DNA of 64,000 nt from Nakamurella lactea DSM 19367 (GCF_000426645.1 NZ_AUFT01000001.1:620001-684000), one strand, 5' to 3'. Positions 53,391-58,802 are shown, numbered from the stretch's first letter. The notes: a model not told the origin generated them from the sequence alone. Numbers and translations: made by a program.

Positions 53391-54389
53391 TCAGCAGGCC
53401 GGCGGCGGACGGTATCCGGCCGAACTCGCGAATTCGAAGCGCAGGGTGCCGACGTCGTCCTGGGGAATGACGATGGCCGTATCCGCTCCACGTCGCCACG
53501 TCCTGGGCAGCAGGACGTAGTGGCCGCCGATCTCGATCAGCAGGATCAACCCGTCGTAGCGGAAGCGGTATGCCGATTCGGCGCCGAGGCTGTTCGAGCA
53601 CTCCGTCGTCCGGATCTCCGATGAACTCAGCTGCAGGTCCTTCTCGCTGAACAGCACGACGCCCGGCTGGACAGGCATCTCGGCCGCCAGCTGGCGCGCC
53701 CGGGTCTGACCGACGGCGACCGAGTAGTCCGTCGCGATCCAGAACAGGCTCATCGCGATGAGCACGAACATCACCGCCCACTCGGCGATGTTCGCGGCCT
53801 CCGAACGGCGAGGAGCGGTGGGGTCGCGCTCCCACCGACGCCGCCGGCGCAGCACGATCACGTACCAGATCAGCAGAATGCCGACGATCACGCTCATCGG
53901 CGCCACGCACAGCCCGCGGTTGAAGACGGTGATGACGACCAGCCGGCTGAGACCGTTGAGCAGCAGCAGGATCCCGATGCCGACGAGCGCGCCGGTCTGC
54001 CGACGGGTCCGCGGCCAGCTGCGCCAGCGATCGGGCAGCGCCGTGTGTCCCCACATCACGGCAAGGCAGACCGCGGCGATGACGATCAACGGAATGAACA
54101 GCGCGTCGACGCTGCGCATCAGGTAGTCGGTGGTGCTCGGGCCGAGCACGGTGGCATCGATCCCGAAGTAGTTGAAGAACCAGTACAGATGTGCCCAGCC
54201 GAAGTAGAACAGCAGTGCCGTCGCCAATGTCGTCGGGGCGACCACCTGCCCGAGGATGCGGGCCCATCGGGAGAGCCCGTCGAACGGCGACGGGGGCGCT
54301 CCGTCATCCCTGGCCGGCATCCCGCGGCCGACGACCGACGGCGACGGTCTCGGCGTCGACAACCGGCGCGGGCGCGGACTGCTAGCCAC
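53391..54389 (-). CDS. Multi-pass membrane protein of unknown function
   Basis: A 332-residue protein with a Pro/Ser-rich N-terminus (~1-40), about six hydrophobic segments between ~48 and 225 (for example TTLATALLFYFGWAHLYWFFNYFG, here seen in parts, and IAEWAVMFVLIAMSLFWIA) and a C-terminal soluble domain of ~100 residues ending in a cysteine. I recognise no family. Its GTG start overlaps the upstream lipoprotein gene by eight bases, so the pair is probably co-translated and may form an envelope complex. Confidence 0.7.
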   Translation of the reverse strand: MASSPRPRRLSTPRPSPSVVGRGMPARDDGAPPSPFDGLSRWARILGQVVAPTTLATALLFYFGWAHLYWFFNYFGIDATVLGPSTTDYLMRSVDALFIPLIVIAAVCLAVMWGHTALPDRWRSWPRTRRQTGALVGIGILLLLNGLSRLVVITVFNRGLCVAPMSVIVGILLIWYVIVLRRRRRWERDPTAPRRSEAANIAEWAVMFVLIAMSLFWIATDYSVAVGQTRARQLAAEMPVQPGVVLFSEKDLQLSSSEIRTTECSNSLGAESAYRFRYDGLILLIEIGGHYVLLPRTWRRGADTAIVIPQDDVGTLRFEFASSAGYRPPPAC

Positions 54390-54807
54390 AGGGAGTGCGC
54401 GATCCGGTGAGCAGGGTGAGGGTCGACCCGCGGTCCAGCACGAAGTCCTCGTCGGGGTGCGACGCGGGGTCCGACGTCAGATAGCTGCACTCGTCGATCG
54501 TGTCGCTGTCGCCGCGGTCCACCACGACGTCCACGCAGAGTTCGCCGTCGCCGCAGGCATCACGGATCTCACTGGAGACCAGCTCGCGAACCTGGTCGAT
54601 CGGCAGGCCCTGCTTGTCGAAGATCGGCGGAATGTTGATCGGTGCGGTCGGCACCCGCACCGGATCGGTGCGCTGCGGCGCACCGGGTACGTCTCCGCCG
54701 TCCGGCGGGTCGTTCACCGGCGCGCCTGGGGACCTTCCGCCACCGCAGGCACAGACGACGAACAAGAGCCCGGTTGCCACGATCCGGCGGAACCTGTCGA
54801 GGAACAT
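54382..54807 (-). CDS. Putative lipoprotein
   Basis: A 141-residue protein with a lipoprotein signal: basic start FLDRFRRI, hydrophobic VATGLLFVV and lipobox VCAC. After a Pro/Gly/Asp-rich linker comes a small acidic domain with cysteines in RDACGDGELCVD and DECSYL, and a final cysteine. No family recognised. It precedes and overlaps the membrane-protein gene and lies 87 bases after the sigma-factor gene on the same strand. Confidence 0.75.
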   Translation of the reverse strand: MFLDRFRRIVATGLLFVVCACGGGRSPGAPVNDPPDGGDVPGAPQRTDPVRVPTAPINIPPIFDKQGLPIDQVRELVSSEIRDACGDGELCVDVVVDRGDSDTIDECSYLTSDPASHPDEDFVLDRGSTLTLLTGSRTPCG

Positions 54808-54894
54808 GACCTAACACCGTCCGATCCGAACGTTGTCGACGAGGTACCGGAAATGCGGGCTGTCACCGTCGCTGCACGCGCGATCTGCGGCGGC

Positions 54895-55566
54895 TCAGGC
54901 TTCCAGCGACTTCAGCATTTCCCGCAAGGCACGCAGCGCCCGTGCTCGCATCGGGCCGATGCTCCCCCGTGGGATGTCGAGCATCGTGCTCAGCTCGTCG
55001 TAGGACGCCCGGTCGGCCAGCAGTTCCAGCATCAACCGGCGCTGGCGCTCGGGCAGCCGATCGACGGCCCGGCGCAGGTACTTGGCCCGCTCGGCCTGTT
55101 CGACCAGCACCGAGGTGTCCGGTGCGTAGGCCGTGTCCAGCCGCCCGGCATCCTCGACCAGCACCTCGTGCCGGCGCGCCCTGATCAGGGCCAGCGCCTC
55201 CCGGCGCGCGGTGACCGAGAGCCAGCCCGGCAGCCGGCTGGCGTCGCGGACCGAACCGGAGAACCGCCAGAGCGCCAGCCAGGTCCGCTGGATCGCCTCG
55301 TCGACGTCTGACGGGTTGGACACCACCCGCCGCACCGAGCAGGCAACCAGCCGGTGGTATCGCTCCACCACCTGACGCCAGGCCAACTCGTCGCAGGCGA
55401 TCAACCGGGCCAGCAGCTGCTCGTCCGATGGATCGAGCGGCAACACGGCCGGCGCGGGCGGGGTCCGGACGGTGTCCGCGACCCGCCCGCGCGGGTCGGC
55501 CTGACGAGGGATACCGACAGTCCGGCTGTCGGCGGTGACCGGCGGCTCAAGAATGCTGGTGGACAT
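54895..55566 (-). CDS. ECF-type RNA polymerase sigma factor
   Basis: A 223-residue group 4 sigma factor. Region 2 is WRQVVERYHRLVACSVRRVV, then DVDEAIQRTWLALWRFSG and LPGWLSVTARREALALIRAR; region 4 is LPERQRRLMLELLADRASYDELSTMLDIPRGSIGPMRARALRAL. The N-terminal ~45 residues are a Pro/Arg-rich extension. No anti-sigma factor is obvious; the lipoprotein/membrane pair downstream or the repeat peptide upstream might play that role, but neither looks like a known anti-sigma. Tandem 13-base repeats lie in its leader. Confidence 0.9.
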   Translation of the reverse strand: MSTSILEPPVTADSRTVGIPRQADPRGRVADTVRTPPAPAVLPLDPSDEQLLARLIACDELAWRQVVERYHRLVACSVRRVVSNPSDVDEAIQRTWLALWRFSGSVRDASRLPGWLSVTARREALALIRARRHEVLVEDAGRLDTAYAPDTSVLVEQAERAKYLRRAVDRLPERQRRLMLELLADRASYDELSTMLDIPRGSIGPMRARALRALREMLKSLEA

Positions 55567-55650
55567 GTGCTGCTCCTGACGAACTCGATCATGGGTGAAT
55601 CCCGATGCATCGAGTCTGTTCGGAGCGGCCGCGCGGCGGATCCGTAGCTT

Positions 55651-55676
55651 TACCTAATTCCGCTACCTAGTTCCGC
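55651..55676. repeat. Two 13-bp tandem direct repeats upstream of the sigma-factor gene
   Basis: Units 55651-55663 and 55664-55676 differ at one base. Read on the minus strand they contain GGAAC and GGAAT, like the -35 element of ECF promoters. They lie in the 124-base gap between the repeat-peptide gene and the sigma factor, so autoregulation is plausible. No matching -10 element is certain. Confidence 0.5.
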
Positions 55677-55690
55677 CGGAACCAAGCCGA

Positions 55691-55855
55691 CTACTTGTCG
55701 TCGGTGGGCTCCTCTGCGATGTGCATGTCGTCCGGTTCTGCCGGGCTACCGGCGATGTGCATATCGGCGGGCTGGGCCGGAATGCCGGCGATGTGCATGT
55801 CTTTCGGGCGGGCAACCTTGCCGCTCTTGCCGGAGTTCGCGGTCTCATCTGTCAT
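55691..55855 (-). CDS. 54-residue peptide with three DMHIA repeats
   Basis: A small acidic protein. After a basic lead ([12 protein letters not shown]) come three copies of DMHIA: at about residues 19-23, 31-35 and 43-47, each followed by a short Gly/Pro/Glu spacer of similar length, then an acidic tail. Its ATG follows AGAAGG at a good distance and sits 11 bases inside the end of the LuxR-type regulator gene, so translation is coupled to that regulator. The repeat organisation resembles modular precursor peptides or short ligands, but no maturation enzyme is near and no family is recognised. The opposite strand shows only the mirror image with no ribosome site. Confidence 0.75.
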
Positions 55856-58802
55856 GGTGAATCATCCTTCTGTTGGGATCTGGGTACTTTGCAGAGTCGC
55901 CTGGCCCGCTCCGGGATTGCTGGCGCGGCAGATTGATCATCGATTCCCCCGAACGGTCGGTCGCTCCGCCGTCCGTCAGCCCGGACCTGGTGGCCGTCGC
56001 GGCCGCCTCCGCCCTGGTCCTGGCGCCCAATTTCATCAACACGTTGCCCACGTGCACGTCAACGGTCCGCGGACTCAGGAACAGCCTGGCGGCGATCTGC
56101 TTGTTCGTCAGCCCCCGGGTCAGTTCGGCCAGTACCTCCCGTTCCCGGCGGGTCAGCCCGAACTCGTCGGCGCCGGTCGCGGCGCCGTGGCCGGCAACTG
56201 CCGGTGACGCCAACCGGATCCGGCTGCGCCGGCCGAGGTCGACGATCGCCGCCAACAGCGGACCGGCCCCGAGCCGAACGGCAATGGTGTGCGCGGCCTT
56301 GAGTTCGACGACACCGGCCGCCCGATCGGTCGACAGGCTGACCTCCGCCTGCCGGAATCGGGCGTAACCCTCCTCGAAGGGCCGTTCCAGCGCGGTCCAG
56401 GCGTCGGCCACCGCCGACCATTCCGGCGTCAGCCCCTGGGATCTGCCCCACTCGGCCTCGGCGAGGCCGCAGAACGCGGCGACTTCCGGCGACGGGCTCT
56501 CCACGGCCAGCGCAGCAGCCGCCTGGCGCAACTTCGTGGTTCGATCCGCGGTTGGCCGGTGATCCCGGCGAGCCAGCACCTCCGCCCCCCGATCCGCTTC
56601 GATCCGCAGGCCCAGCGCGCACGCCCGGGCCAGGTCACGACTCTCGGTTCCGGTGTCGAGGACCGCGATCGCCTGGTCGATCGACTCGGCTGCCCGGTCC
56701 AGATCGCCCTCGGTCAGGGCCCAACTCGCCTCGGCCAACGAGAGGTCGGCGGTGATCGAGATGGAGGTCTCCCGCTCCCCGAGATAGGCGGCTGCGTCCA
56801 GGTTCTCCCTGGCCGCCGCCTGATCGCCGCGGCCCATGTCGAGTTCCGCCCTGGCCAGTCGGATCAGCAGCGCCTGCCCGGCCGTCACCCCCTCGGCGAA
56901 CGCCTCGTCGCTGAGCTGCTCGGCCTCGTCCCACCTACCCGCGATCCGTAGCAGCACGATCGTGTTGTTGACCAGCACGGCGCCAGTTCCGACGAACGCG
57001 TTCTGCCGACGGGCCACGGCCAGCGCGTCGACCGCGGTCCGGCAGGCCTCCTGCGTGTGCCCGGCGATCAGCAACGAGAACGCCAGGTTCGCGGCGACCC
57101 GCCGGCGATCCTCGTCGTCGCCGTGCACGGCCGCCAGGATGGAGGCCTCCCGAATCAGCTCGATCCCTGGCTCGAGTTCGCCGGCCAGCACCTGACACAT
57201 GCCCAGCACGGCCAGCGCCCGGCTCCGCTCTGCGGCGGCCGCGACCTGCTCGGAGAGGGCGATCGCCTGACGGGCGAAGTCTTTCGCCTCCGCATACCGG
57301 CCGGCCTGGATGGCCAGCCTGGCCCTGGAGGCGCCGATTCTGGCATGCAGTTCGGACACCGGCAGGTCGGCCACCAGCGCATCGGCCTCGGCGTAGGCGC
57401 GGCCGGCGCCGGCCGTGTCGCCGGCATCCCACAGGCATCGACCGAGCCGTTCCATGTTCACCGCCCTGGCCGCCGGGTCGGTGATCCCCTCCACCGCCCG
57501 CAGCGCCAGCTCCACGGCGTCCTCGGCCGCTCCGGCCCGCCGCGCCGATTCGGCGGCGTCGCCCAACAGCGCCGACTGCCCCTGTGCATCCTGCGGTCCG
57601 TGGCCGGCATCCATCAGCTCGACCAGATGCTGGTGCTGGCGCCAACTGTCGGGGTGCGCGAAGGCCCGTTCGGCCTTGGCCGCCGCGACCACGGTGGCAG
57701 CGAATGCTTCGTCGTCGTCGCCGCTGGCCCGCCAGTGGGCCGCCCACTCCGCCGCCCCACTCGCACCGTTTCTGGTGTGTGGCACGGCATCCAAGGCGAC
57801 GGCGATCCGGTGATGGATGCGCTGACGCTCTCCGGGCAGCATCTGCGCCAGCAGTGCGTCCTGGGTCAGCGCGTGCCGGAAGCCGTACTCCTGCCCGCCC
57901 GGCTCGACCACGACGATCCCGGCCGCGACACATTCGGCGACCGCATCCAGCACCTGATCCGGCGTCAGGCCGACGATGCCGTCCAGCAGTTGTTGGGACA
58001 CCGGCCGCCCCAGCACGGCCAGCGACTGCACCACCTGCCGGGCCGGCGCGCCCAGGCCCGCGGCACGCATGGTCAGCACGTCCTGCAGCCGCGGCGGCAG
58101 CGTGTCCAGCGCACCGGCCTCGACGAGTTCGGTGACGATGAACGGATTGCCGCCCGACCGGGCCTGCAGGATCTGGAGTTCGTGGTCGGTCGCCGGGCGC
58201 CGGCGCTCCTGGGCGAACAGCTCGGCCATATCCGCGACCGACAGCCGCTGCACGTCCAGTCTGCGGACCTGCCGATTCGCCGCGATCGTCTCGAGCACCA
58301 CCTGGGCCGCGGGATCGGCCGGCGGCTCGTCGGTTCGGTGGCTGAGGGCGACCAGGTGGCCGGGCGGGAGGTTCCGGGCCAGGAACCCGACCAGTTCCAT
58401 GGTGCCGACGTCGCTCCAGTGCAGGTCGTCCAACGCCAGCAACTGCCGGATCTCCCCGGTCCTGGCACCGGTCAGTTTGTCCAACAGGCGCTCGAAGAGC
58501 TCACCCCGGTTGACGGCGTTCAGATCCCCGGTGCCGATCCCGGCACTGCGCAACGCGGCCGCGATCGGCGCGTACGGGATGGGTTCGCTGAGCACCACGG
58601 TGCACGCACCGCGCAGCACCTGGTCGCCGTTGCCGGCGACGTACTCGGCAAGGTTGTCGATCAGCGCGCTCTTGCCGACCCCGGCCTCACCACTGACGGT
58701 GATCACGACGGCGCGCTCCGCGCATGCCTCGAACGCGTCGACGAGTGCGCGCATCTCATCGTCACGCCCGACGAGACGGTGGTAGGCCGTCATCGTTTCC
58801 AC
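55845..58802 (-). CDS. Large ATPase-LuxR family transcriptional regulator
   Basis: A 985-residue LAL-type regulator. The N-terminal AAA ATPase (~1-330) has Walker A in [20 protein letters not shown] and Walker B near [14 protein letters not shown] long helical, tetratricopeptide-like middle (~350-880) follows, and a C-terminal LuxR helix-turn-helix ([29 protein letters not shown]..., seen in parts). Such proteins sense a small ligand and activate neighbouring genes. GTG 58802 or ATG 58793 may be the start. Its stop lies 11 bases into the DMHIA-peptide gene, so regulator and peptide are translated together. Confidence 0.92.

Follow-up and report, generated by a model that had tools for sequence, protein, structure and literature searches.

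A repeat-peptide gene adjoining a LAL regulator and an ECF sigma factor gene in Nakamurella lactea

Large ATP-binding regulators of the LuxR family (LAL) and MalT-type members of the STAND class (signal transduction ATPases with numerous domains) combine an ATPase core, a tetratricopeptide repeat (TPR)-like sensor and a C-terminal GerE helix-turn-helix (HTH). MalT responds to a sugar as well as to partner proteins. To our knowledge, the signal of most LAL regulators is unknown, and we know of no MalT-type or LAL regulator that has its own repeat peptide encoded behind it; a literature search found no published report of such an arrangement. Here, we analysed a 64,000-nucleotide stretch of the Nakamurella lactea DSM 19367 genome (NZ_AUFT01000001.1:620001-684000, the window), in which a regulator with this three-part architecture is instead paired with a 54-amino acid repeat peptide encoded behind it, followed by a gene for an extracytoplasmic function (ECF) sigma factor. 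A homologue of the peptide occupies the same place in the only other LAL orthologue locus found, in a genome of the same genus (G015). On the sequence evidence, the peptide looks like a genuine gene that is tied to the LAL.

ECF factors without an anti-sigma neighbour have sigma-70 regions 2 and 4 only, as does the window ECF, which differs from them in its conserved upstream TAGGT-repeat element and in the company of LAL and peptide. Among systems that pair a peptide with a receptor, the RRNPP signature comprises a propeptide of 10-100 amino acids with a Sec signal (or of the SHP/PrgQ type), a TPR receptor of 250-500 amino acids and a distance of -60 to 400 bp (PMC10075063). Compared with RRNPP pairs (Rap-Phr, PlcR-PapR, Rgg-SHP), the window and G015 loci have peptides of fitting length (54 and 34 amino acids), a TPR receptor and close adjacency (-11 and +107 nt), but show no secretion signal by Kyte-Doolittle means, and the window receptor is 985 amino acids long, adds ATPase and GerE domains and is actinobacterial. 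Since export signal and receptor length do not fit, we do not file the pair as an RRNPP member. PimR (PMC5930380), a SARP-LAL (SARP, Streptomyces antibiotic regulatory protein), lacks the LuxR HTH and binds through its SARP domain to CGGCAAG repeats with 4-bp spacers. The likeness lies in a large ATP-binding regulator with a direct-repeat operator before a second-tier regulator gene; the window repeat, however, is TAGGT with an 8-nt spacer, and the window LAL has a GerE HTH. The features of the LAL and peptide genes are as follows.

55845..58802, minus strand: LAL regulator, with AAA/STAND ATPase, winged helix, TPR-like superhelix, C-terminal GerE HTH and disordered tail
55865..55870, minus strand: ribosome-binding site of the peptide gene, GAAGGA, 9 nt before the ATG, read directly
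55691..55855, minus strand: 54-amino acid peptide with three 12-residue DMHIA modules
55766..55801, minus strand: module 1, 12 residues
55730..55765, minus strand: module 2, 12 residues
55694..55729, minus strand: module 3, 12 residues, reaching the C terminus and aligning with the single G015 module, DMHIEGEVPPPK

An earlier, sequence-only reading of this DNA had described five minus-strand open reading frames (ORFs): the LAL, the peptide, the ECF sigma factor, a lipoprotein and a membrane protein. Their positions, domains and repeats were confirmed. The peptide starts inside the end of the LAL gene, with an 11-nt overlap (55855-55845), and the regular module spacing that had been noticed proved to be an exact 36-nt period, with three exact 36-nt direct repeat units spaced 36/36. 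Within the units, the DMHIA codons vary only at third positions (GAC/GAT, GCC/GCA), all silently. G+C content by codon position is coding-like (0.64/0.45/0.82), against 0.57/0.68/0.54 in the intergenic stretch that follows. The predicted product is soluble and acidic (net charge -6), and its module has neither Cys nor conserved Ser/Thr. Pfam and NCBIfam contain no family that the peptide matches. An Rfam search returned nothing. As for an export signal, neither the window peptide nor its G015 homologue has a hydrophobic stretch (Kyte-Doolittle means over 11 residues peak at 0.55 and -0.75).

In G015, a LAL orthologue (51% identical over 938 columns) is followed by an ORF with one module.

L048:5959-6063: G015 one-module peptide, 34 amino acids

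This peptide reads MTKPGPQKPTPTPPDSGDKTDR-DMHIEGEVPPPK, and GAAGGAG precedes its ATG; the strong ribosome site claimed for the window gene has a counterpart in the relative. The last module is exactly 12 residues in both peptides, from D to the final K, and both end DMHI-x8-stop, with a module count of three in the window versus one in G015. DMHI appeared behind the G015 LAL in 1 of 20,000 dinucleotide shuffles of the stretch, and DMHI-x8-stop in none. Elsewhere, including their N-terminal parts, the two peptides differ, a pattern that would suit DMHI being the part that matters for function. The prediction of a homologous repeat peptide at the same position in a relative is thus supported by one independent case, and because that relative keeps the LAL with a one-module peptide, the two probably form a switch with its dedicated partner. 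Stop-start coupling fared less well, as the overlap seen in N. lactea is replaced by a 107-nt gap in G015. The conservation evidence comes from two genomes of one lineage, and the module is defined from two peptides.

The 985-residue regulator has all the marks of the LAL family: an AAA ATPase (AAA_16, residues 9-151, E 9e-20 in Pfam) with Walker A and B-type segments (GEAGVGKS and LLALDDLHW), a C-terminal LuxR HTH (GerE, residues 883-935, E 3e-20) that is NarL/DevR-like, and a large size with a TPR-like middle. TPR_12 matches three stretches below the Pfam cut-off, and TPR_8 scores above the cut-off in the G015 orthologue. An AlphaFold model built from 13 sequences (mean pLDDT 83.7) comprises the ATPase core, a winged helix, a helical TPR-like superhelix of ~540 residues (311-859) and the HTH (883-941); confidence is low for the tail from residue 945, the end of whose coding sequence is shared with the peptide gene. 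In Foldseek searches with the model, the top match was the STAND-TPR protein 6mfv, and a structure of MalT (8bob, on negative regulation of the maltose system) ranked sixth; TPR domains made up many of the other matches, several of which show the domain bound to a partner peptide or protein. Since peptides are classical ligands of TPR superhelices, a peptide partner for the LAL is plausible. A role in defence was rejected, as PADLOC matched only the HTH or a generic ATPase.

The third gene of the set lies downstream of the peptide.

54895..55566, minus strand: ECF sigma factor, extended at the N terminus by ~45 residues (Pfam and TIGR02937)
55636..55669, minus strand: conserved block TAGGTAGCGGAATTAGGTAAAGCTACGGATCCGC upstream of the ECF gene, a promoter or operator candidate with a TAGGT-N8-TAGGT direct repeat

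Assignment to the sigma-70 ECF family rests on Sigma70_r2 and r4_2 (Pfam) and on TIGR02937 above its cut-off. An orthologue is present in G015 (52% identical over 196 columns), and no anti-sigma domain was found among the neighbours of the ECF gene in either the window or G015, as had been noted for the window copy. The conserved block, which lies between peptide and ECF in the window, stands out within an otherwise diverged intergenic stretch: TAGGTAGCGGAATTAGGTAAAGCTACGGATCCGC (55669-55636) and TAGGTGGCCGAATTAGGTAGTTCTACGGATCCGC of G015 (L048:9778-9811) are identical at 29 of 34 nt. In the window, exact TAGGT-N8-TAGGT occurs at this site only; with one mismatch allowed, two window sites are found against 0.13 expected, a number reached in none of 100 shuffles. 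The pattern TAGGT-N5-AATTAGGT was absent from the fetched loci other than in copies of the window and G015 sites. When the NarL heptamer (consensus TACYYMT) is reverse-complemented, TTAGGTA fits it at six of seven positions, and by analogy with NarL-type half-sites a GerE-type protein could read the TAGGT repeats. As the element sits between peptide and ECF, the ECF gene probably has its own promoter; a sigma-70 promoter scan gave nothing above chance. In the ECF leader RNA (window 55555-55645, minus strand), the ribosome site GGAGC can pair with an upstream GCUCC (-35.7 kcal/mol, z -2.9); in G015, GAGCUC pairs with the ribosome site no better than in shuffles (z -0.5), leaving the hairpin unsupported there.

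Across 17 genomes of the genus, LAL, peptide and ECF occur together in two, the window genome and G015, in the same slot between ndk-GNAT and ABC genes. The flanks are widespread: ndk is present in all 17, a GNAT gene lies behind it in 13 of the 15 other loci, and an ABC ATPase falls within the fetched stretch in nine of these 15, mostly with two ABC-2 permeases. Loci with both GNAT and ABC genes have a gap of ~0.6-2 kb with no match to LAL, peptide or ECF. In several further members of the genus (L237:13407-13682, also L244, L240, L232, L238, L239 and L234), a gene for a small secreted or membrane protein lies near this place; its product has a signal-peptide-like start, an LA-x-TG-x-DI motif, one hydrophobic helix and a sortase-like tail, and has no match in the window or G015.

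In G015, the genes that come after the peptide gene are, in order, a CMD gene, a sigma factor gene with SnoaL_2, an opposed FAD mono-oxygenase gene, a TetR gene, the ECF orthologue and the ABC genes.

L048:6207-7762: G015 CMD-family gene and ECF41-like sigma factor gene with SnoaL_2, next to the peptide in place of the window ECF
54382..54807, minus strand: lipoprotein-like ORF of the window, no Pfam or NCBIfam family, outside the conserved module
53391..54389, minus strand: window membrane protein with about four hydrophobic segments, outside the conserved module

A single transcription unit over the five window genes is not supported, given the conserved element of the ECF gene and the ~3.8 kb, including an opposed gene, that separate peptide and ECF in G015. 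The lipoprotein-like and membrane ORFs overlap by 8 nt, and the G015 locus has no match to either. What is conserved as a set is thus LAL, peptide and ECF; the envelope pair is local, and its proposed place as output of the circuit is not supported. In support of a two-tier circuit, LAL, peptide and ECF co-occur, and the conserved element upstream of the ECF gene fits a second tier.

Our preferred reading, to which we attach somewhat less than even weight as a whole (binding, switching and ECF activation), is that LAL and peptide form a dedicated receptor-peptide pair that feeds the ECF. The LAL would be a MalT-like switch in which a STAND core binds ATP, a long TPR-like superhelix acts as the sensor and the GerE domain binds DNA. 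The peptide, in which no export signal was found, would stay cytosolic, and its DMHI modules would bind the TPR superhelix inside the cell, setting a switching threshold or holding the LAL off or on. Active LAL would then act on the TAGGT-repeat element and turn on the neighbouring ECF. Expression of the peptide, its binding to the LAL, the direction of its effect and the action of the LAL on the ECF element are steps that we infer; of the roles first suggested for the peptide (ligand, adaptor or modified product), this reading would take the first two. Several observations weigh against this reading. With the pair in only two genomes, adjacency could reflect hitch-hiking in one acquired island; the CMD/ECF41-like pair that follows the G015 peptide means that the output of the peptide need not be the ECF; and the conserved element, of which no copy was seen upstream of the LAL gene, might simply be an ordinary promoter or a site of ECF autoregulation. 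The interest of the locus is that a small peptide, genetically linked to one LAL and built on a distinct repeated module, gives that regulator a concrete candidate ligand. If the reading is true, peptide-TPR signalling would extend to STAND-type regulators in actinobacteria.

Alternatively, the peptide may be an independent small protein, for instance one that binds a metal or a partner through Asp, Met and His, which is regulated by the LAL or shares its transcript and does not bind it. We consider this unlikely, though a serious contender: the side chains of D, M and H could plausibly coordinate a metal, the product is a soluble, acidic protein, and a position downstream of a regulator is common to many regulated genes, yet the peptide keeps its place right after the LAL even when a different gene follows, matches no known family and makes do with a single module in G015.

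An RRNPP-type pheromone, in which several DMHIA copies per precursor would be exported, cleaved, re-imported and read by the TPR domain of the LAL, appears improbable. A small peptide does adjoin a TPR receptor, its near-identical modules vary in number as in Phr precursors (PMC5199041), and both genomes have an ABC-2 transporter downstream; however, ABC genes also occur in genus members without LAL and peptide, so the transporter is not dedicated, and the missing hydrophobic stretch and the 985-residue receptor (versus 250-500) count against it as well. A related conception, to which we likewise give little credence, is of a STAND-type actinobacterial LuxR regulator controlled by an adjacent multi-copy DMHIA signal; this would be an independent parallel, based on an ATPase, to the receptor-peptide communication of Firmicutes, its module number evolving as in Phr precursors.

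A ribosomally synthesised and post-translationally modified peptide (RiPP) precursor with three core modules is very improbable. Repeated modules do follow a leader-like N-terminal part, and a modified product was among the roles first suggested, but the N-terminal parts are not conserved, the module lacks Cys and conserved Ser/Thr, and Pfam searches of the neighbours in the two genomes (regulators, sigma factors, the ABC-2 transporter, the FAD mono-oxygenase and CMD) showed no RiPP-type enzyme, although a distant one is possible. A fortuitous or decaying ORF, with repeats made by slippage and free of selection, is scarcely credible: duplication can create a 36-nt tandem repeat and only two genomes carry the peptide, but motif, ribosome site and C-terminal spacing are shared with G015, although the two LALs are only 51% identical, and differences within DMHIA are silent only.

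Judged from the genomes scanned, the LAL-peptide-ECF family is tiny and was not found elsewhere. In the genus, the next LAL matches after G015 are ~30-35% identical; among 250 genomes sampled from the order, no further orthologue was found (best other match 38%). The pattern DMHI[A/E/D] occurs at seven places in the 17 genus genomes, where only the window and G015 peptides are comparable short ORFs and three further matches are not. Searches of 61 relatives with the peptide returned, besides itself, only weak matches, nearly all within long frames, and a match in its own genome (L003) was rejected as lying inside another gene. A double-DMHI DNA pattern was found in its own genome only among 297 genomes of the class; in a wider contig collection it gave mostly AT-rich chance matches, with no related peptide among those fetched from the matches listed. 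Likewise, DMHI-x8-stop marked a peptide of this kind in its own genome only among 395 class genomes. Plasmids, phages and viral contigs held no convincing relative, and a Streptomyces D-N-H repeat peptide, tried as a lead, had no match in plasmids and was not used. ECF relatives at 37-40% identity have no DMHI peptide upstream, and other LAL loci (~30% identity) have no comparable peptide behind the regulator, whose end was not locatable in several of them. In one locus (L181, genome G401), a different, acidic 63-amino acid ORF (MSPVKFSLFNRDDDDEETVEIDDQ...) with a good ribosome site begins at the stop of a 35%-identical LAL that belongs to another family; small partners encoded downstream may be more common among LALs.

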